DNA of 32,497 nucleotides from Singulisphaera sp. (GTDB lineage Bacteria > Planctomycetota > Planctomycetia > Isosphaerales > Isosphaeraceae), in contig DAIDJG010000500.1 of NCBI GenBank assembly GCA_027451445.1, forward strand, positions 1 to 32,497, in the 5' to 3' direction. Under the pieces are notes generated by a model, which saw nothing but the letters and a program-made list of their open reading frames with translations, ran no database searches and was not told the origin of the DNA. Shown one piece after another: positions 2,739 through 31,150 of the stretch (the first letter of the stretch is position 1; each line of letters starts with the position of its first letter). Both the position numbers and the translations under genes were made by a program.

Positions 2739-2791
2739 CTTCGGGGGCTGGCGCCCCCGAACCCAGGTGAGCCAGGTTGGTGTGTGGTGGC
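2739..2791 (+). repeat. Hairpin-plus-tail repeat, copy A
   Basis: A perfect 9-bp stem (TTCGGGGGC / GCCCCCGAA) with loop TGGC is followed by the conserved tail CCAGGTGAGCCAGGTTGG and then GTGGTGG. The same unit occurs on the opposite strand at 4968-5025. The stems differ in sequence but stay paired. A second small inverted repeat (GTGGTG ... CACCAC, about 2785-2802) follows at once. It may act as an element-specific terminator-like structure between the helicase-like gene and the downstream small ORF, although no T-run is present. Confidence 0.7.
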
Positions 2792-2817
2792 GAACTTTCA
2801 CCACCTGCCATCCGACC

Positions 2818-4656
2818 TCAGCTCACCGCTTCCCACCCACTTCTCTTACCGCTCGGCCTCATCGCTAATCCAATGATTTCAAGATCTGTTAATATTCGGC
2901 GAACGGTGCTTTCCGGAACACCCGTCGCCCTTGCGAGCGTGCTTGCGTGGATTTTGTCGACCTTAACGCTCACTTTTGCTTTAGGGGGTCGGGCGCTAAC
3001 GCTCACTTTCGCTATAAGAGAGGGATTCTCTTCTGTACTTGATTTAAGAGCAGAACTGAGCGTTAGCGTACGCAGCGCTTCCAGAACCCTTAAAGATTTC
3101 GTACTTAGGTTTGGCGGGGGGTGTGCGAGCGGGAGCTCAAGGGGCTCGTCAGAGATTACGAAGACGCGGCCAGGGATCGACCCGATCACCTGCGAGAGTC
3201 GGCCTCCCTGCAATTCTCGATAGGCCCGCTGCCAGGCATCGTTCAGATAGCCCCGACCGACGACAGGGAGAGGGTCGCCACTCTCAAACCGGCCCTCCCA
3301 GACGAGTGCCCCCCACTCTCCGACCTCATCGCTCCCGTCGAGCTCCCCAGATTGGGTCAATCGCTTCATGACCTCCATGGGGTTAACCGGGGGCGCTCCC
3401 ATCAGCAGCGTGAGATCGCAATCCTCGAGACTCTCTCCGCCGACTTGGCTCCATTCGGCCATCCTGACGCGTTCTCTCTCCGCGGAACGCAAGGCGTTCA
3501 ATATTTGCGCATGTTTATTATTCTTGTTCGAGTGCACGATTCCCACCGTTGCCTCCGGAGAGATGACCAGATAGCCTCGGATCAGCTTTGCAATGGCGCC
3601 GGGCCGCATGCTCTGAGTCGCACGCAAGGGAACTTGAAGAGCCTCGATCGGCTGACACGCTACCGCGATATGGTGCGCAGGCATTCCGACGGCCGCGCTC
3701 AGCCGCTCTGGAGTGAGCGTCTGATCAAGAACCAACACCGGTTGTCTCAGTTTGCGTGGATACCAGAACGCTGCTAGATATAATAAATCATCAACAAATG
3801 TTAAATCTAAACGATTGATGTGGCCAAGCACCGCCGCGTTGCAAAGCCTAACAATGTGTTTCGACAGATTCACACCGCGATTGTCCAAAACACCTTTTAA
3901 GCTGGCCTCCCAGCCGTCCGGGGGCTCCCAACGTCGGGGCAACTTGACACGATGATTCCACTCTTGCTGGGTAATCCATAATAATGAATGCGCAAAACTA
4001 TTAAGTTCACTAAAATAATTATATTTTTTATTATTATTATCTAATAATCCATTAACCTTGCACTGGTGTGAGGCTTCAGCAAGCAACAAGAGGCTATCTT
4101 TCGCCTCTGAAATCGGCATCGATTCTGAGAGAGCCGGGCAGAGAACGTCCAAGCCAGCCACGTTAACGAGGAAGACGGCCTCCCGGCCCTCAGATTCCTT
4201 GACCAGATCGGTATAAGTGGCGCGAGCTTTATTCATGATAACGTGAAATGCCAAACGTGCCTTGTCTAATTTGTCAAAGTACTCACATCCTGCCTTGTGT
4301 GGACAGACGATGCAAACCGAACCTTTCGGAGACAGCCCTAGTTCTACAGCACGGACGATTTCATGCATATTTTTGCAATTACCATTTCTGAAATTTCTAA
4401 TAACCTCTTTGCGCGATGGATACAAATCCGCCGCTGCGTCAGGTATGAGTTCCTCAATAACCTTGAGAATCGCGTTCCCTTCAACCTGCGACTGACAAAT
4501 GATCAAACTACTTTCAAGTCTTAACTTTTGGATCGTCTGGACGCACAGTCGGATCGCGTCGCGACTAGCGCAAGGGGCTGAATCAAGGCTAAGTCGCTCA
4601 TTCGGAATCGCGTGAGCCCAAATGGCGACTCGCGAATTAACAAATAATTCCGACAT
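2818..4656 (-). CDS. DinG/XPD-related helicase-like protein lacking Walker A
   Basis: A 612-residue product immediately downstream of the primase (27-base gap), so probably its partner in element replication. Four cysteines at residues 94, 115, 118 and 124 (C-x20-C-x2-C-x5-C, with CIVCPHKAGC) look like the Fe-S or zinc cluster between motifs Ia and II of DinG/XPD-family helicases. The C-terminal half has features of the second RecA domain, including VLVLDQTLTPERL, EDCDLTLLMGAPP and a final VFVISDEPLELPL. Residues about 570-612 form a winged-helix (ASTLARATGVPESTVRRILT). I find no GxxGxGK(T/S) loop, and the expected DEAH position reads VNVAGLD, so ATPase function is doubtful. Either the N-terminus is truncated or the protein has been repurposed. 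The start is ATG 4656. The DNA is AT-rich, with tracts of AAT codons, compared with flanking genes. The helicase assignment is inference from pattern, not a search. Confidence 0.55.
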   Translation of the reverse strand: MSELFVNSRVAIWAHAIPNERLSLDSAPCASRDAIRLCVQTIQKLRLESSLIICQSQVEGNAILKVIEELIPDAAADLYPSRKEVIRNFRNGNCKNMHEIVRAVELGLSPKGSVCIVCPHKAGCEYFDKLDKARLAFHVIMNKARATYTDLVKESEGREAVFLVNVAGLDVLCPALSESMPISEAKDSLLLLAEASHQCKVNGLLDNNNKKYNYFSELNSFAHSLLWITQQEWNHRVKLPRRWEPPDGWEASLKGVLDNRGVNLSKHIVRLCNAAVLGHINRLDLTFVDDLLYLAAFWYPRKLRQPVLVLDQTLTPERLSAAVGMPAHHIAVACQPIEALQVPLRATQSMRPGAIAKLIRGYLVISPEATVGIVHSNKNNKHAQILNALRSAERERVRMAEWSQVGGESLEDCDLTLLMGAPPVNPMEVMKRLTQSGELDGSDEVGEWGALVWEGRFESGDPLPVVGRGYLNDAWQRAYRELQGGRLSQVIGSIPGRVFVISDEPLELPLAHPPPNLSTKSLRVLEALRTLTLSSALKSSTEENPSLIAKVSVSARPPKAKVSVKVDKIHASTLARATGVPESTVRRILTDLEIIGLAMRPSGKRSGWEAVS

Positions 4657-4683
4657 AATATCATGTAATATTATTAAAAATGA

Positions 4684-5976
4684 TTATATTAAAAATCCAC
4701 GATCTTTGTTGGTTCGATAGGCGTCATCCACCTTCTTACGGAGTTCGGCTTCCGTCCAGGGTGGTATACATTTTGAATTATAGTTATTTTTGATGATATC
4801 AAGAAAATATTCAGGAGTGAGATCGAATCCAGGGCCGGCAAGAAAGCAGGCCAGGAAGCAATCATCCGATCCGCGGCTCTCCTGGATTGCCGGTGGAAGA
4901 GAATTGAGGAAGGCGATTACCCTCTCTGTCCGGGAGCGCCGGACTCTTCTCCGTGTCCCTCCGCTACCCACCACCCCAACCTGGCTCACCTGGGGTTTGG
5001 GGGGCACCAGCCCCCCAAAGGGTTCGTTCGCTTGATATACCTTGATCTCTAAGGTGCAAATAACGTCTAGATTCGACTGTCGTATTTGTGAAGTGTAGTC
5101 GATAGCTTCGGCAGGCATTACGCATGGGTCTACACCGTCCGTCCGAAGGATGGCTTCGACTGCCTCATCATCGGCGAGCCAGTTTCGGCCGTTCCACACT
5201 TGTGGATAGTGGAAGCGCTTATGATGTCTTCCAGGCAGCCGAACCCACGTTCCAAATCCGCCATCGCGCACACCGGGACTCTTGGGGAACGCTTCAGGCG
5301 ATTGATCGAGTTCGAATTGCTCCCAATCTCGGATCAACCATTTACCGAAAGAGAATGCGTGCGCCGTGGGAATAGGCCGATCGAAGATGATGTACAGATG
5401 ATATCCACCGCGTCCGTTTGACTCAAGCAAAAGGGGATTCAAACCGAGCTGAGCGGCAGCGTCGTGCCAATGGAGTGCGGCCCGTAGGTTGGCGTAGGCG
5501 TCCACAGAGTCCGAATGGCGGTCGATGTCGAGCGCAATCCAGCGGGAGAAACACTCGCCAGCGACCTGGGCGGCGCAGTGAAGGCCGATGACATCATTGG
5601 CGCTGGTTGCGCGGAAATGGGCGACCAGCTTTCTATGGGTCAGGGGATTCTTGGCGGTCTTCGGTTTGACCCCGGACTGGGTATCGTAGTAAGCGCCGTG
5701 ACAATCTCGCCTGTTCACTAGCCATGAGTTGGCCCACTCAGCCAACGGCTCTGCGTGGTCACTCCACGGACGGTAACGGTCATAGCGACGCAATTCGTAT
5801 GTGATTGTTGCGTCGATGAATTCCTCGAAGCCGTCTCCATCGTCCTCCCCGCTCCCTGTGATGTAATCGTCAGGGTCGGGTTCGGGAAGGGTCCGGTCCA
5901 ACGGGAGCGCAGAGGTCCACCGTGTTGAAAACCGTTGATTTTCGGTGGACCGAATGTTAGATTTGAAGTTGCCCAA
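4684..5976 (-). CDS. Archaeo-eukaryotic-type primase of a mobile element
   Basis: A 430-residue replication primase. Catalytic-type motifs are visible: ALDIDRH (residues 148-154; the two Asp of the AEP active site), SNGRGGYHLYIIFD (186-199; the sxH-type motif with His193), EAFPK (228-232) and FGTWVRLPGRHHK (241-253). This motif order matches the AEP group found in TOTE and other mobile contexts. After a linker, residues about 350-430 (FLNSLPPAIQ ... PPWTEAELRKKV) resemble the PriCT helical domain. The linker at 319-340 is encoded by a hairpin repeat that also occurs at 2739-2791. The best start is TTG 5976 with AAGGAG about 12 bases upstream; no ATG fits better. It is followed by the helicase-like gene and preceded by HTH genes, the layout of an integrated plasmid- or satellite-like element. 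Confidence 0.8.
   Translation of the reverse strand: MGNFKSNIRSTENQRFSTRWTSALPLDRTLPEPDPDDYITGSGEDDGDGFEEFIDATITYELRRYDRYRPWSDHAEPLAEWANSWLVNRRDCHGAYYDTQSGVKPKTAKNPLTHRKLVAHFRATSANDVIGLHCAAQVAGECFSRWIALDIDRHSDSVDAYANLRAALHWHDAAAQLGLNPLLLESNGRGGYHLYIIFDRPIPTAHAFSFGKWLIRDWEQFELDQSPEAFPKSPGVRDGGFGTWVRLPGRHHKRFHYPQVWNGRNWLADDEAVEAILRTDGVDPCVMPAEAIDYTSQIRQSNLDVICTLEIKVYQANEPFGGLVPPKPQVSQVGVVGSGGTRRRVRRSRTERVIAFLNSLPPAIQESRGSDDCFLACFLAGPGFDLTPEYFLDIIKNNYNSKCIPPWTEAELRKKVDDAYRTNKDRGFLI
4968..5025 (-). repeat. Hairpin-plus-tail repeat, copy B, inside the primase gene
   Basis: Read on the minus strand this is TTTGGGGGGC-TGGT-GCCCCCCAAA (10-bp stem), then CCCCAGGTGAGCCAGG, TTGGGG and TGGTGG. The tail matches copy A at 2739-2791 almost base for base, while the stems differ by paired changes. 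It is read in frame as FGGLVPPKPQVSQVGVVG in a linker of the primase, between the catalytic and PriCT-like domains, so the protein stays open. Confidence 0.75.
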
Positions 5977-6334: not shown

Positions 6335-6769
6335 TTACCCGATCTTGCTCTTTTGAGTCCTGCGCTTCTTGCCGCTGGCTTCCTTTTCGCGAGCACGCCC
6401 CAGCGCCCCACTATCTAACGATTGCGTAACCGTGCATGCTTTCTGGCCTGGCGTGTTGCGGTTCGGGTCGACAGGGAGCAGGCCGTGTTCCTTGATCCTC
6501 ACGACCTCTCGGGCCGAAATGCTCCAAAGTTCGGATCCGCCGCGCTTCTCGATCTTCTTGACGGCCTGGATACGACCGAGACGGCACCACTCCCTTACCG
6601 TGTAGGCTGATTTATTGAACATATTAGCCGTTTCTTCCACGCTGTACCATTCGCGTTGGCTATCGGGATTTCTTGAGACAAGGCCCAGTAGCCTCTCCAT
6701 TTTCGTGTCGAGAGCCGTTACCTTGTCCTGTAAGGCCGAAAGCCGATCGTCGATCATGGTTGCATGCAT
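6335..6769 (-). CDS. Helix-turn-helix DNA-binding protein with N-terminal coiled coil
   Basis: A 144-residue protein. Residues 5-30 (DDRLSALQDKVTALDTKMER) form a short heptad-patterned coiled coil, probably for dimerisation. Residues about 40-90 (WYSVEETANMFNKSAYTVRE, then WCRLGRIQAVKK) form an HTH_17-type excisionase-like domain with conserved EE.A....S..TVR.W...G.I. The last 40 residues are basic and disordered. ATG 6769 and ATG 6757 (residue 5) are both possible starts. It is the element gene nearest to the tRNA-derived attachment site at 7100-7140, which fits a role in excision or element regulation; no integrase is seen beside it. Confidence 0.65.
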   Translation of the reverse strand: MHATMIDDRLSALQDKVTALDTKMERLLGLVSRNPDSQREWYSVEETANMFNKSAYTVREWCRLGRIQAVKKIEKRGGSELWSISAREVVRIKEHGLLPVDPNRNTPGQKACTVTQSLDSGALGRAREKEASGKKRRTQKSKIG

Positions 6770-7099: not shown

Positions 7100-7140
7100 T
7101 TCTCAGCCTAGGGACCGGGGTTCGAGTCCCCGTGGGGGTA
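7100..7140 (+). other. 3' fragment of tRNA-Glu(CTC): probable attachment site
   Basis: The sequence TTCTCAG has the form of an anticodon loop (T33, anticodon CTC, purine 37). The 3' anticodon strand CCTAG and a variable loop follow. Next come a perfect T-arm (CGGGG-TTCGAGT-CCCCG), a 3' acceptor strand TGGGGGT and discriminator A, without encoded CCA. The 5' half of the tRNA is absent: the bases before the anticodon loop cannot pair with CCTAG, and there is no D-arm of correct length. A tRNA truncated to anticodon loop-to-3' end is the classic core of tyrosine-recombinase attachment sites. Confidence 0.6.
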
Positions 7141-7154
7141 TTCCGAAGCGAAAT

Positions 7155-7557: not shown

Positions 7558-7917
7558 ATGCCCCGAATAACGAAGCCCGAACGATCCTCCACTCCGAAAG
7601 CCAAATCGCAGCCCGTCACCGAGAACGGTCCGGCGAGTGAGGTACTCACACTTTCCGAGGCCGCCGCGTACCTCAGGTTCCCGGAAGCCGACATCCTCCG
7701 GCTAGTCGACGAGCAGGGATTGCCGGCCCGCAGACTCGGCGATGACTGGCGGTTCTCCAGATCTGCTATCCAGCAGTGGCTGTCCACTCCGCCCCCGCGC
7801 GAAAGCAAGGAAGCCCAACTGGCCGTGGCGGGCGCCTGGAAACACGACCCGTATGTCGAAGCTGAACTGGAAGAAATCCTCAAGAGGCGGGGCAGGTCCA
7901 CTGAGGACGGGGAATGA
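7558..7917 (+). CDS. HTH_17 (excisionase-type) DNA-binding protein, putative antitoxin
   Basis: A 119-residue protein with a disordered basic N-terminus (1-28) and an HTH_17/MerR-like domain at about 29-77. The domain shows LTLSEAAAYLRFPEADILRL, then GLPARRLGDDWRFSRSAIQQ, where the arginine-rich wing and final helix match the family. A C-terminal acidic tail (EAELEEILKRRG) is of the kind that wraps a toxin in antitoxins. The ATG is preceded by AAGGAGG. Its stop overlaps the ATG of the PIN-domain gene (ATGA at 7914-7917), so the two are translationally coupled. It probably neutralises the PIN toxin and autoregulates the pair; the role is inferred from layout. Confidence 0.7.
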   Translation: MPRITKPERSSTPKAKSQPVTENGPASEVLTLSEAAAYLRFPEADILRLVDEQGLPARRLGDDWRFSRSAIQQWLSTPPPRESKEAQLAVAGAWKHDPYVEAELEEILKRRGRSTEDGE

Positions 7918-8330
7918 TCATCTTGGACACCGATGTCCTTACGTTTCACCTCCTCGGTCATCCGCGTGTGCTTCAGCGCCGCCGAGAGGCCCACGATGAA
8001 GTCGTGATCACGCTCATCAGCCGAATCGAGACGCTGCAAGGTCGGTTTGCGACACTGCTGAAGGCCGCCGATGGGGAGCAACTACTACGTGGACAGCATC
8101 GGCTTGACAAGTTGGAGCTGGACCTGAGGCCCTTCCGCGTCCTTCCGGTCACGGATCACGTTGCATCCGAATTTGATCGGCTTCGCGCGAACAAAGGTCT
8201 GAGGAAAATCGGCAGGGCCGACTTGCTCATAGCAACGATCGCCCTGACCCATGTCGCCACGCTCGTCACTCGCAACGTGAAGGACTTTCGGCTCGTGCCG
8301 GGCCTGACGATCGAGAACTGGCTCGACTGA
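7914..8330 (+). CDS. vapC: PIN-domain ribonuclease, VapC-like toxin
   Basis: A 138-residue PIN-domain protein of usual VapC length. The acidic metal-binding residues are in place: Asp5 in ILDTDVLT, Glu39 in TLISRIETLQGR, Asp103 in IGRADLLIA, and Asn121/Asp124 in LVTRNVKDFRLVPGL. PIN toxins of this group cleave tRNA or rRNA with magnesium. The gene overlaps the upstream HTH_17 gene by four bases, the standard antitoxin-first layout. The antitoxin differs from the common VapB AbrB, RHH or Phd types. The protein looks intact, with all catalytic acids retained. Confidence 0.85.
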   Translation: MIILDTDVLTFHLLGHPRVLQRRREAHDEVVITLISRIETLQGRFATLLKAADGEQLLRGQHRLDKLELDLRPFRVLPVTDHVASEFDRLRANKGLRKIGRADLLIATIALTHVATLVTRNVKDFRLVPGLTIENWLD

Positions 8331-11861: not shown

Positions 11862-12320
11862 AGAGCGCCGCACGGGACTCGACGACGCCCGCTCGGCAGT
11901 CGGCCCACGCTGGCCAGGTGCGGGCGCTCAGTCCGATTCTCGGGTCAGCCTTTCGTGGTTTTGAGGGGGAAGGGCTACAAACCGCTCGGCGGGCGTCCCG
12001 GAGATGTTTCCCAAACGCCACAACGCCCGGATTTTTCGGCGGCCGGTGTCCATAGAATCGTCGCTGATTAAATCCTCAATTTTTTCCTTTGACAAAAGAA
12101 CCGATAACCGTATTATGTCCTTAACCTCTGACTGCATCCACCTATGCTCGGTCCAATGCCAGCACCCACACAAAAATCCTTGCCCGATGGTAAGAAACCT
12201 TTTGACCGGCCAACCCTGACTGTCGTACGCTGAGGGAAAGTGTCCTCATTCTGCGCCTTTGCGCGCTGAGGCCGGTGGTTAAGAACGTCAGCCACAACCC
12301 AATGTAGGGGGAGATGGACG
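11862..12320. other. Intergenic region upstream of the DUF1549-DUF1501 operon
   Basis: About 460 bases without a supportable gene. A weak promoter-like pair, TTGACC near 12199 and TACGCT 18 bases later, lies about 100 bases before the operon. GGGGGAG precedes the ATG at 12321. The promoter call is low confidence. Confidence 0.35.
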
Positions 12321-13994
12321 ATGAAAGCGGGTCGTCTCTGGCGATTGCCTTGCCGAAGCATGGCGGCGTTCGCCATTCTGGCGGGTCTGGGCGCGGGCAT
12401 GCTGGTGGCGGCTGATGCGCCCACCAAGCCCGAAGCTACGGAAACAAAAGAGAAGGTCGCAGAGGATGCCGGGAAGACGCCGAAGTCGACCCCAACCAAA
12501 CTCGACTACATCGATGAGATGATCCGCGAGGCCTGGGAACAGGCCAATGTGAAGCCCTCGAAGATGTGCACCGACGAGGAGTTCCTCCGCCGCGTGTACC
12601 TCGACATCCTGGGCCGCATCCCCAACATTGAAGAGGCGAACGGATTCCTCAAGTCGAAGGAGTCGGGCAAGCGAGCCAAGCTCGTCAATTATCTGCTCGA
12701 GCAGCCGGATTACGCCAAGAACTTTGCGACCCAGTGGTCGATCCTGCTCGTTGGGCGAGGCCGGCAGGAGCGCCAGGTCGACAAGGGTGAGCTCACGGCC
12801 TGGGTGCGCCGGCAGATCACGGCCGAACGGCCCTGGCACGAGATCGTCTATGACCTGATCACGGCTAACGGCTCGAACAAGGAGAACGGGGCGGTCAACT
12901 ACACGCTGGCCCACCTCGAATTCGGCGCGGTGCCGCTGACGTCGATCACGACCCGCGTCTTCCTCGGCCAGCAGATTCAGTGCACCCAGTGCCACGACCA
13001 TCCGTCGAACGACTGGAAGCAGGCCGACTTCTGGGGCATCAACGCGTTCTTCAAGGGCATCCACCGCGAAGACGTGATGAAGGAGACCAAGACCGGTGCC
13101 GAGGTCTACGACCACACCGATCTCTCGGACAACCCGGTCGACTCCTACGCCAGCTACGACAAGCGCAATGGGTTGGTGGGCATCGCTTTCCCGCGATTCC
13201 TCGACGGCCGCAAGATCCCCCAGGGGACCGAGGTGACCAACCGCCGCGAGGCGCTCGCGAAGTTTGTGGCCGATCCCAAGAACATGGACCTGGCGCGGGC
13301 ATTCGTGAACCGGATGTGGGGCCACTTCATGGGTCGCGGGTTCGTTCAGCCGGTCGACGACTTCGGCCCGCACAACCCGGCCAGCCATCCCGAGCTGCTC
13401 GACAAGCTCGCGGAAGAGTTCCAGGCCAGCAACTACGACATGAAGGCGCTCATCCGCTGGATCACCGCAAGCGAGGCCTACAACCTCACGAGCATGATGA
13501 CCAAGGCCAATGAGAAGGATGAGACCCTCTTCAGCCACATGTCGCTGAAGCCGATGACCCCCGAGCAGCTCTTCGACTCGCTGATCACGGCCACCGCAGC
13601 CCACAAGGCCAGCGGCGGCGACACGAGCAAGCGGCGCGACGAGTGGCTCAAGCAGTTCGTCTTCACCTTCGCCAACGACGAAGGCGAGGAAGGCTCGAGC
13701 TTCCAGGGGACGATTCCCCAGGCCCTCATGATGATGAACGGCGACCTCATGGAGCAGGCCGTCAGCGGCAAACCGGGAAGTTTCCTCAACGACCTCGCGG
13801 CCCACGCCAGCAGGAAGAGCGGTGTGTCGACGATGGTCAACGAGATGTTCCTCGCCGCCCTGAGCCGGTATCCGACCACGGCTGAGAAGAACAAGGCCTC
13901 GTCGGCTCTTCAGAGCTCACCCGACACGGCCTATATCCTGGAAGACCTCTTCTGGGCCCTGCTGAACTCGAACGAGTTTGTCCTGAACCACTAA
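12321..13994 (+). CDS. Secreted DUF1549/DUF1553 protein
   Basis: A 557-residue planctomycete-type exported protein. A signal peptide covers about residues 1-32 (hydrophobic AAFAILAGLGAGMLVA, cleavage near AADA). DUF1549 runs from about 60 to 230, starting YIDEMIREAWEQ and containing RRVYLDILGRIPN. It contains CTQCHDHP (Cys221, Cys224, His225), a cytochrome-c-like CxxCH that is commonly seen in this family. DUF1553 occupies about 270-555 (ARAFVNRMWGHFMGRGFVQP, then DDFGPHNPASHPELLD). The start is supported by GGGGGAG upstream. It is transcribed with the DUF1501 gene 97 bases downstream. These pairs occur in many copies per planctomycete genome; their biochemical role is not settled. Confidence 0.9.
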   Translation: MKAGRLWRLPCRSMAAFAILAGLGAGMLVAADAPTKPEATETKEKVAEDAGKTPKSTPTKLDYIDEMIREAWEQANVKPSKMCTDEEFLRRVYLDILGRIPNIEEANGFLKSKESGKRAKLVNYLLEQPDYAKNFATQWSILLVGRGRQERQVDKGELTAWVRRQITAERPWHEIVYDLITANGSNKENGAVNYTLAHLEFGAVPLTSITTRVFLGQQIQCTQCHDHPSNDWKQADFWGINAFFKGIHREDVMKETKTGAEVYDHTDLSDNPVDSYASYDKRNGLVGIAFPRFLDGRKIPQGTEVTNRREALAKFVADPKNMDLARAFVNRMWGHFMGRGFVQPVDDFGPHNPASHPELLDKLAEEFQASNYDMKALIRWITASEAYNLTSMMTKANEKDETLFSHMSLKPMTPEQLFDSLITATAAHKASGGDTSKRRDEWLKQFVFTFANDEGEEGSSFQGTIPQALMMMNGDLMEQAVSGKPGSFLNDLAAHASRKSGVSTMVNEMFLAALSRYPTTAEKNKASSALQSSPDTAYILEDLFWALLNSNEFVLNH

Positions 13995-29297: not shown

Positions 29298-30535
29298 GCT
29301 CGACTTCTGCCGTTTTTCGGGTTTCACTGAGGCAAGCCTCCGCGGTGCAATGAGAGGTATGGACCCATCCCTACATCGCACTCACGGAGGCTGCCATGAC
29401 TATCGTATCCGATCGACGTCGCTCACGACCCTCTTAGAAACAGATTCGGGCACGGCTTCGCGCTTTCCGACGCCAAGCCGAACGTAAAGCAAGGATCGCG
29501 CGGCGCCGCCTTCAACGCAATCACGAGCAACTTCCCAAGCCTGTTCGTAACATTTTCGATCCTCTCGAATCGGCGTTTTCGCGCCCCACGCATCGACGGT
29601 TCGTGCTCCTCGCCTTGGCCGCTATCCTCTCTTTGGGTGGCCGCACGATTTGCAACCTGCTTCGCGTGTTGGGCGTCGTGGCGCCCGGACATCCGAGTAC
29701 ATACCACCGCGTGTTCTCGCGCGACCGGTGGTCGCTCGCACGCCTGGGTCGTTCCTATGTGGCAGCGGTCCTCGCTCGATTTGCCCCCACCGGTCAGATT
29801 CTTTTGGCCGGCGACGATACGGTCACGGAACATCCTGGACCCCATGTCTACGGCAAGGGTTGCCATCGTGACCCGGTTCGCTCCACTCACTCCTACACGG
29901 CCTTTCGCTGGGGACATAAGTGGGTCGTCCTCGCCCTCTTGATCCCCGTCCCTTGGGCAACCCGACGCTGGGCCTTGCCGCTCTTGGTCGCACTTTATCG
30001 ACCCGAGGAGGAGAACCAGAAACAGGGGCGACGGCACAAAACACCGTCCCAACTGCTCGGTCAAATGATTCGCATTCTTATGCGATGGTTTCCGGAACGG
30101 AATTTCATGGTCGTGGCCGATGGCGGCTATGCGACCCACGAATTCGCCGAACTCGCCGCGCGATCGAAACGGCGACTCACCTTGGTCAGCTTGTTCTACC
30201 CCAACGCCAACCTCGTGGGACCGACACCGGAGTACTCGGGCAAGGGCCGTCCACGCCGCAAGGGAGAGCGCCTTCCCAGCCCGAAGAAAGTTGTCGAAGG
30301 CGCCACAGAACGGCAACGTCTGAAAGTCTCCTGGTACGGCGGAGGTCAACGCAAGGTCGAGACCGTGACCGGGACCGCACACTGGTACAAGAAGGCTCGT
30401 CCTCTGGTGGAGTTGCGCTGGGTCTTCGTCCACGACCTGACTGGGACGCATCGCGACTCCTATTTCTTCACCACCGACCCGACGATGACGGTTCAGTCGT
30501 TGATCGAGACCTACACCGGCCGCTGGAACATTGAG
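29298..30535 (+). mobile_element. Truncated IS element with YREK-type DDE transposase
   Basis: The element begins within about 30 bases after the PARG-like stop and is recognisable to the catalytic Glu codon at 30533-30535. The transposase starts at ATG 29396 (GGAGG upstream), but codon 14 is TAG (29435-29437); sequence beyond it (KQIRARLRAFRRQAERKARI) is clearly the same protein. Catalytic motifs are LLAGDDTVTEHPGPHVYGKG (first Asp), VVADGGYATHEF (second Asp) and YTGRWNIE (Y-x2-R-x3-E, the third acid). The C-terminal part after the Glu and the right inverted repeat are missing. The IS4/IS701-like assignment is by motif only. Confidence 0.8.
29331..29395 (+). repeat. Inverted repeat ahead of the transposase start
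   Basis: GGCAAGCCTCCGCGGTGCAA (29331-) and TCGCACTCACGGAGGCTGCC (-29395) are imperfect inverted copies of about 22 bases with a 21-base gap, ending directly at the ATG of the transposase. It encloses the ribosome site GGAGG and could hide it in mRNA, a known way for IS elements to limit transposase made from outside transcription. It may also represent a terminal region of the IS. Confidence 0.55.
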
Positions 30536-31150
30536 CTCGGCAGCGTCACGTCCCAGGTGAACTCGCTCATCGCCTCGGCCAACTCGACGCTCGGCGGCAT
30601 CTCATCAACCTTGAGCGGCGCTACCGGCAATGCGACCGGCGTCCTCTTTGCCGCGCTCGGCCAAGTCGACGGCTTGATCGGCAGCGCGGAGTTCATCGAG
30701 GGCGAAATTGTCGGCGAAGTGAACGGCCTGGCCGGCATGATCGCCCCCACGCTCGGGTCCGTCACCGGCGAGCTCAACACTGCGCTCGGCGACATCAGCT
30801 TGACGCTGGGCAGCGTCACCACGGAATTGAACACGCTCATCGGCACCGTAACCGCCGCGGCAGGCGGCTCGTCAGCCGCTCTGAACACGGCGATCAGCGC
30901 GGTCTCCTCGACACTTGGCACGGTCACCACGCAACTGAACGGACTGACCGGCGAGGTCAACACCATTCTCGTCGGCCTCCCGACCGAACTGGCGGGGGTG
31001 ACGGGCAGCTTGGGAACCGTCATGGGCGACGTGAATACCACGCTCGGAAGCTTGACCGGGACGGTGAGCTCGCTTGAGGTCAGTCTCACCTCGGAGTTGA
31101 ACACTCTGCTCGGCGCCGTCACAGGCATTCTGGGCGGAATCAGCCTCTGA
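29603..31150 (+). CDS. Chimeric ORF: transposase body fused to a repeat-protein tail
   Basis: From GTG 29603 the frame is open for 515 residues. Residues 1-311 are the DDE transposase core (see the IS entry), and the amber codon lies upstream at 29435. At residue 312 the sequence changes abruptly from YTGRWNIE to LGSVTSQVNSLIASA and continues as about 205 residues of low-complexity repeats to TGA 31150. The junction (30535/30536) falls in GAGCTC. Restart at 29603 without a visible ribosome site is doubtful, so the fusion may not be made; a GTG so deep in the transposase is only nominal. Deletion between an IS and a neighbouring repeat gene explains the layout; an assembly joint is the alternative. 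Confidence 0.6.
   Translation: MLLALAAILSLGGRTICNLLRVLGVVAPGHPSTYHRVFSRDRWSLARLGRSYVAAVLARFAPTGQILLAGDDTVTEHPGPHVYGKGCHRDPVRSTHSYTAFRWGHKWVVLALLIPVPWATRRWALPLLVALYRPEEENQKQGRRHKTPSQLLGQMIRILMRWFPERNFMVVADGGYATHEFAELAARSKRRLTLVSLFYPNANLVGPTPEYSGKGRPRRKGERLPSPKKVVEGATERQRLKVSWYGGGQRKVETVTGTAHWYKKARPLVELRWVFVHDLTGTHRDSYFFTTDPTMTVQSLIETYTGRWNIELGSVTSQVNSLIASANSTLGGISSTLSGATGNATGVLFAALGQVDGLIGSAEFIEGEIVGEVNGLAGMIAPTLGSVTGELNTALGDISLTLGSVTTELNTLIGTVTAAAGGSSAALNTAISAVSSTLGTVTTQLNGLTGEVNTILVGLPTELAGVTGSLGTVMGDVNTTLGSLTGTVSSLEVSLTSELNTLLGAVTGILGGISL
30536..31150 (+). repeat. Repeat-rich tail (TLGSVTxELNTLIG-type units)
   Basis: Some 204 codons encode about 12 to 15 degenerate units of 13-18 residues, e.g. 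TLGSVTGELNTALGDIS, TLGSVTTELNTLIGTVT, TLGTVTTQLNGLTGEVN and SLGTVMGDVNTTLGSLT. Spacing of Leu, Val and Ile suggests an amphipathic helical or coiled filament. It lacks Cys and charged patches. It is the 3' end of an older gene whose start was lost. The codon composition is ordinary GC-rich, unlike the AT-rich mobile block. Confidence 0.7.

Follow-up and report, generated by a model that had tools for sequence, protein, structure and literature searches.

Single-strand initiation on the IncQ plasmid RSF1010 provides the closest described arrangement to the one reported here. Its site ssiA is 40 nt long: a hairpin of 21 nt precedes a tail of 13 nt, and a GTG occupies nt 31–33 (PMC4434180). RSF1010 carries one such site per strand, ssiA and ssiB, both read by the primase RepB' (PMC4434180; PMC4538821). 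A GTG is also read by the helix bundle of the pRN1 primase (PMC8076596), NrS-1 PrimPol shows a preference for GTGA or GTGG (PMC8718748), and pRN1 possesses an essential stem-loop 3' of its replication gene (PMC4234260). The pRN1 and RepB' primases have a PriCT-1 domain in common, and the bacterial chromosomal archaeo-eukaryotic primases (AEPs) of one large group are almost always found within integrated mobile elements (PMC5862659). Palindromic DNA is also known from repeat families. The Rickettsia palindromic elements (RPEs) are about 150 bp long and occur in dozens of copies per genome in unrelated genes (PMC10969869), and most REPs have a GTAG or CGTC tag adjoining the stem (PMC3733652).

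The window analyzed in this study, 32,497 nt in length, is contig C500 of the 10.9-Mb genome of a Singulisphaera sp., which is assembled in 622 contigs. The G + C content is 44–56% over much of the first 7 kb compared with about 60% past 7 kb, and the low-GC stretch ends at a partial copy of tRNA-Glu(CTC) (Table 1), indicating an integrated mobile element. The intact tRNA-Glu(CTC) gene is located on another contig (C418), and the fragment is probably the attachment site of the island. Just beyond the island edge, genes for an HTH_17 protein and then a PIN-domain protein form a VapBC-like toxin–antitoxin pair (7558–8330, +). Elsewhere in the window, a DDE_5 transposase frame (29603–31150, +) continues into a long repetitive tail rich in Leu, Ser, Gly, and Thr and is perhaps a fusion with another gene.

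Table 1. Coordinates of the hairpin-plus-tail units and of the surrounding features of the island.
Feature	Position	Strand	Remarks
Copy 1 hairpin	2740..2761	+	22 nt; 9-bp stem TTCGGGGGC/GCCCCCGAA, loop TGGC
Copy 1 tail CCCAGGTGAGCCAGGTTGG	2762..2780	+	GTGA begins 6 nt past hairpin
SF2-helicase-like protein, 612 aa	2818..4656	-	C-terminal winged-helix region
Iteron-like cluster TAACGCTCA x3	2964..3065		copies 2964+, 2997+, 3057-; copy 1 about 200 bp away
AT-richest 100-bp windows of first 9 kb	3941..4050		24–30% GC; between hairpins
Second AT-rich stretch	4611..4740		28–30% GC; spans start of 612-aa gene and end of primase gene
AEP-TOTE/CAPP-like primase	4684..5976	-	Pfam AEP-TOTE, E 3e-10
Copy 2 tail CCCCAGGTGAGCCAGGTTGG	4976..4995	-	GTGA begins 7 nt past hairpin; in-frame linker peptide PQVSQVG
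Copy 2 hairpin	4996..5019	-	24 nt; 10-bp stem TTTGGGGGGC/GCCCCCCAAA, loop TGGT; within primase coding sequence
HTH_17/excisionase-like protein	6335..6769	-	same island
tRNA-Glu(CTC) 3'-half duplicate, about 40 nt	7101..7143 (approximate)	+	right edge of low-GC island

The island contains two inverted copies of a unit composed of a GC-rich hairpin of 22 or 24 nt and an identical 19-nt tail (copy 1, 2740–2780, +; copy 2, 5019–4976, -). Both hairpins are perfect with a 4-nt loop, and the tails of these mirror-image units, which are 2.2 kb apart, face inward. An 18-mer of the tail is identical at 2763–2780 (+) and 4976–4993 (-). With up to three mismatches to this 18-mer allowed, dinucleotide shuffles of the window gave a mean of 0.02 matches each, and two matches were obtained in none of 100; the exact inverted 19-nt match by itself was obtained in 1 of 200 Markov shuffles. 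The presence of two inverted copies with a common tail, as described in the initial annotation, was borne out.

The two copies differ at none of the 19 tail positions and at about five positions in the hairpin part. Compared from the loop toward the base, the two stems show a single double substitution (C:G to G:C), and one T:A pair is added. The initial annotation had taken compensatory stem changes as a sign of selection on, or replication through, structure. Pairing is indeed kept, but the claim rests on a single double change, and a stem change that keeps pairing was reached in 247 of 500 shuffles. One covarying pair is therefore suggestive, weak when taken alone, and no proof; it is plausible that structure was selected for or passed through during replication. 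Folding of both strands at the hairpins is good (z -2.4 to -3.8). Hairpin and tail can in addition be enclosed by an outer stem, four or five pairs long (GTTC/GAAC and ACCC/GGGT), but these stems are unrelated between the copies and may have arisen by chance. The immediate flanks of the hairpin stems are AGTTC/CCCAGG and AACCC/CCCCAGG. A duplicated coding segment or intergenic hairpin that has no present function would fit the occurrence of only two copies, unconserved in relatives. This explanation appears improbable, since the tail is identical at 19 of 19 positions while the flanks are fully diverged, and since the stem changes keep pairing.

Copy 1 is intergenic and lies about 40 bp past the stop codon of the 612-aa helicase-like gene, on its 3' side. 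This position and the good folding of both strands would suit an RNA-level signal, in which copy 1 would be the 3' end hairpin (a terminator or stabilizer) of the primase–helicase transcript and copy 2 a transcript hairpin within the operon. However, both hairpins lack a following T run on both strands, and Rfam and terminator scans returned nothing for either unit. The invariant tail would also be left unexplained, and copy 2 lies in the middle of a gene. We regard an RNA-level role as very unlikely, the least probable of the explanations considered.

Copy 2 is coding and is read in frame in the primase gene as FGGLVPPKPQVSQVGVVG (residues 320–337). In an AlphaFold2 model, the 430-aa primase comprises a catalytic domain (residues 73–297), a linker of low confidence that is predicted to be disordered (302–344), and a confidently modeled four-helix bundle (349–422), and the hairpin-encoded peptide falls in the disordered linker. 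The in-frame reading of one copy in the linker between two primase domains was thereby confirmed, with the boundaries corrected from the 319–340 of the initial annotation. The catalytic pattern of the primase is intact (DID, GGYH, and RLPGRHH). The closest solved catalytic domain is that of CAPP (Z 21.7), RepB' (3h25) gave a Z score of 8.4, and Foldseek aligned the primase to full-length RepB' (3h20) with an E value of 9e-5. The best structural matches of the helix bundle alone include RepB' (Z 6.5) and the primase subunit PriX, with Foldseek E values above 1. Taken alone, the scores for residues 349–422 are weak, but two aligners placed primase helix bundles first or close to it, and PriCT_1 appeared among the sequence relatives of the bundle at a sub-threshold E value of 0.019. 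The C-terminal domain of the primase is a probable helix-bundle domain, which in pRN1 is the GTG-reading part.

The linker was also compared with those of two aligned relatives, L169 and L093, in which a primase domain is likewise joined to a helix bundle. In both, the linker falls short by about 33 residues and lacks the peptide; the hairpin unit explains about half of the difference. The suggestion that residues 319–340 are an insertion is accordingly plausible for the hairpin-encoded stretch, and the peptide is not a feature that these homologs share.

To determine the copy number of the unit, exact, mismatch, hairpin-only, and covariance-model searches were applied to the 10.9-Mb assembly. 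They found two copies and no more, both in one replication module, and a genome-wide repeat family was thereby ruled out. The covariance model produced no convincing match in either of two genome samples, one of 392 spanning the phylum and one of 382 spanning the class, the weak matches listed for both having no matching hairpin plus tail, and nothing convincing was found for the unit in 45 genomes at the family level. The exact tail was matched seven times in 85,000 GTDB species contigs and once in viral contigs, in no case with the hairpin. Plasmid and phage DNA searched with the unit gave chance-level matches alone, and a search with the primase protein returned one plasmid protein with the C-terminal domain only and none from phages. 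Among about 60 related primase loci, no comparable inverted hairpin-plus-tail pair private to an element was found, and the paired hairpins present there are mostly tandem or genome-wide repeats. The missing pair in these loci is weak evidence either way, because the relatives are only 30–45% identical. At L145, a dense array of CCCCCTCCCTGAAGGGAGGGGG hairpins (11966–13522) lies directly 3' of a related primase gene.

These searches bear on the likeness to Rickettsia palindromic elements that the initial annotation had proposed. With two copies found and no convincing further one in the genomes searched, a Rickettsia-like or REP-like mobile palindrome loses its chief argument, and the likeness did not hold up. 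Of the two outcomes named in the initial annotation as refuting it, the lack of other copies in the genome was observed, and a peptide common to the homologs was not. A low-copy form of this explanation would have a REP-, MITE-, or RPE-like palindrome jump twice into the island, once in frame into the primase linker, with the bulk of the family residing in an unsampled donor genome. Other planctomycete genomes of this class do carry inverted hairpin-plus-tail repeats throughout. A different, REP-like hairpin, CACAGGGCNNCCGCCCTGTG (CACAGGGC..GCCCTGTG), occurs at L146 (11857–12098) and in the genomes G446, G440, G455, and G559, often as inverted pairs about 100–150 bp apart, and its copies number 34 to 147 per genome across four species; it is absent from the Singulisphaera genome itself. 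Such families in neighboring planctomycetes leave room for a donor with many copies of the unit. The longer primase linker, of which the unit makes up about half the excess, would also fit an insertion, which the predicted disorder would allow to be tolerated, and the GC content of the island is below that of its surroundings. On the other hand, the 10.9 Mb contain only two copies, the genomes sampled from phylum and class yielded none, the exact tail with hairpin is absent from the species and viral contigs, no GTAG or CGTC tag adjoins the stem, and no target-site duplication was seen. Low-copy mobility is rather unlikely, although it is the nearest competitor of the explanation that we prefer.

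By analogy with known systems, we propose, tentatively and at less than an even chance, that the adjoining primase uses the units as element-specific single-strand initiation (priming) sites, one per strand; we place this explanation ahead of the low-copy mobile palindrome. The only two copies in the genome, one on each strand, are located in a replication module beside an AEP primase. The stem varies with pairing kept while the tail is invariant, and the AT-richest DNA and the iteron-like triplet are situated between the hairpins. The AT-richest stretch is a possible unwinding region. The TAACGCTCA triplet spans 102 bp inside the 3' part of the 612-aa coding sequence; triplets like it are common in repeat-rich planctomycete loci.

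Several features argue against priming. No comparable private pair was found at the related primase loci, copy 2 is coding, and the units are far apart. The sequence 5' of the hairpin differs between the copies, although in ssiA this flank is touched by RepB'. Furthermore, the closest catalytic domain is that of CAPP rather than RepB', and the neighboring helicase-like protein has a degenerate Walker A motif. In this 612-aa protein the place of Walker A reads APCASRD, whereas ATGSGKS is kept in the relative L097 (comparison by eye), and the protein may be an inactive or repurposed helicase. The loss of Walker A makes the DNA-opening agent of the module uncertain. The GTG in the tails is weak evidence for priming, since the triplet is common.

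The winged-helix end of the 612-aa protein could bind DNA, which would also be compatible with the units being bound or processed, as double-stranded DNA, by another protein of the element (origin binding, nicking by a relaxase or HUH enzyme, or recombination), with the hairpin extruded as a cruciform. The inverted layout, the perfect GC-rich hairpins, and the identical flank that a protein could read are consistent with such sites. No relaxase or HUH gene was recognized among the selected reading frames of the first 8 kb, and the ends of IS200/IS605-type elements are in direct rather than inverted orientation, both of which count against this role. It is quite improbable, slightly more so than a duplication without function. 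Integron attC sites and IS605 ends were dropped as candidates for their wrong layout, as was a diversity-generating retroelement, no reverse transcriptase having been recognized.

If the units are priming sites, we infer the following order of events during any replication of the island. The helicase-like/winged-helix protein would open the AT-rich module, and each displaced strand would fold its own hairpin, leaving the tail exposed. The tail's GTG(A) would then be gripped by the helix bundle of the primase, with a primer made immediately 5' of it by the catalytic domain. Primer extension would copy the hairpin and leave the module on either side, since inverted sites with inward-facing tails would send the two primed strands outward, each in the opposite direction.

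A further and rather unlikely proposition is that an integrative planctomycete element carries a private, primase-specific hairpin pair, one member of which is folded into the coding sequence of the primase that reads it. We know of no such overlap of signal and reader in RSF1010-type or pRN1-type replicons. To our knowledge, the start sites of synthesis are known for very few such primases, and a two-site, one-per-strand candidate signal beside its enzyme makes the question testable with short oligonucleotides. A DNA structure needed for replication may, in this case, dictate part of a protein linker.

Compared with known systems, the units share with the REP/BIME repeats of planctomycetes and other bacteria a short GC-rich hairpin, a conserved flank, and an arrangement in inverted pairs, but they number two rather than tens to hundreds, have no GTAG or CGTC tag, and include one copy in a gene. 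As in the RPEs, palindromic DNA is read in frame within a protein; the unit is about 45 bp rather than about 150 bp, is present in two copies instead of dozens, and affects one gene. With pRN1 and its ORF904, the island has in common a stem-loop just 3' of a replication gene, a winged helix in a replication protein, and a primase with a probable helix bundle, and the GTG reading of pRN1 would apply here by analogy. In contrast, pRN1 has a single large 100-nt stem-loop where the island has two short hairpins, inverted and each with the conserved tail, and its SF3 helicase is fused to the primase. Relative to RSF1010, the GTG lies 6–7 nt past the hairpin rather than 4 nt, the sites are separated by 2.2 kb, and one of them is coding; the helicase is SF2-like rather than RepA-type, and the element is an integrated island rather than a plasmid. 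A scan of an IncQ plasmid for a strict 21-nt hairpin with GTG at +4 yielded no paired sites, and in an IncQ1 plasmid we read, by eye and by folding, an imperfect and unannotated hairpin CCCTACCCGAAGGGTGGGGG followed by CGGTGTG in the same layout. In geometry, the units correspond to ssiA and ssiB of RSF1010 in having one hairpin plus tail per strand, a hairpin of about 21 nt, and a GTG in the 3' tail, and in each system the primase, composed of a catalytic domain, a linker, and a probable helix bundle, is encoded by the element itself.
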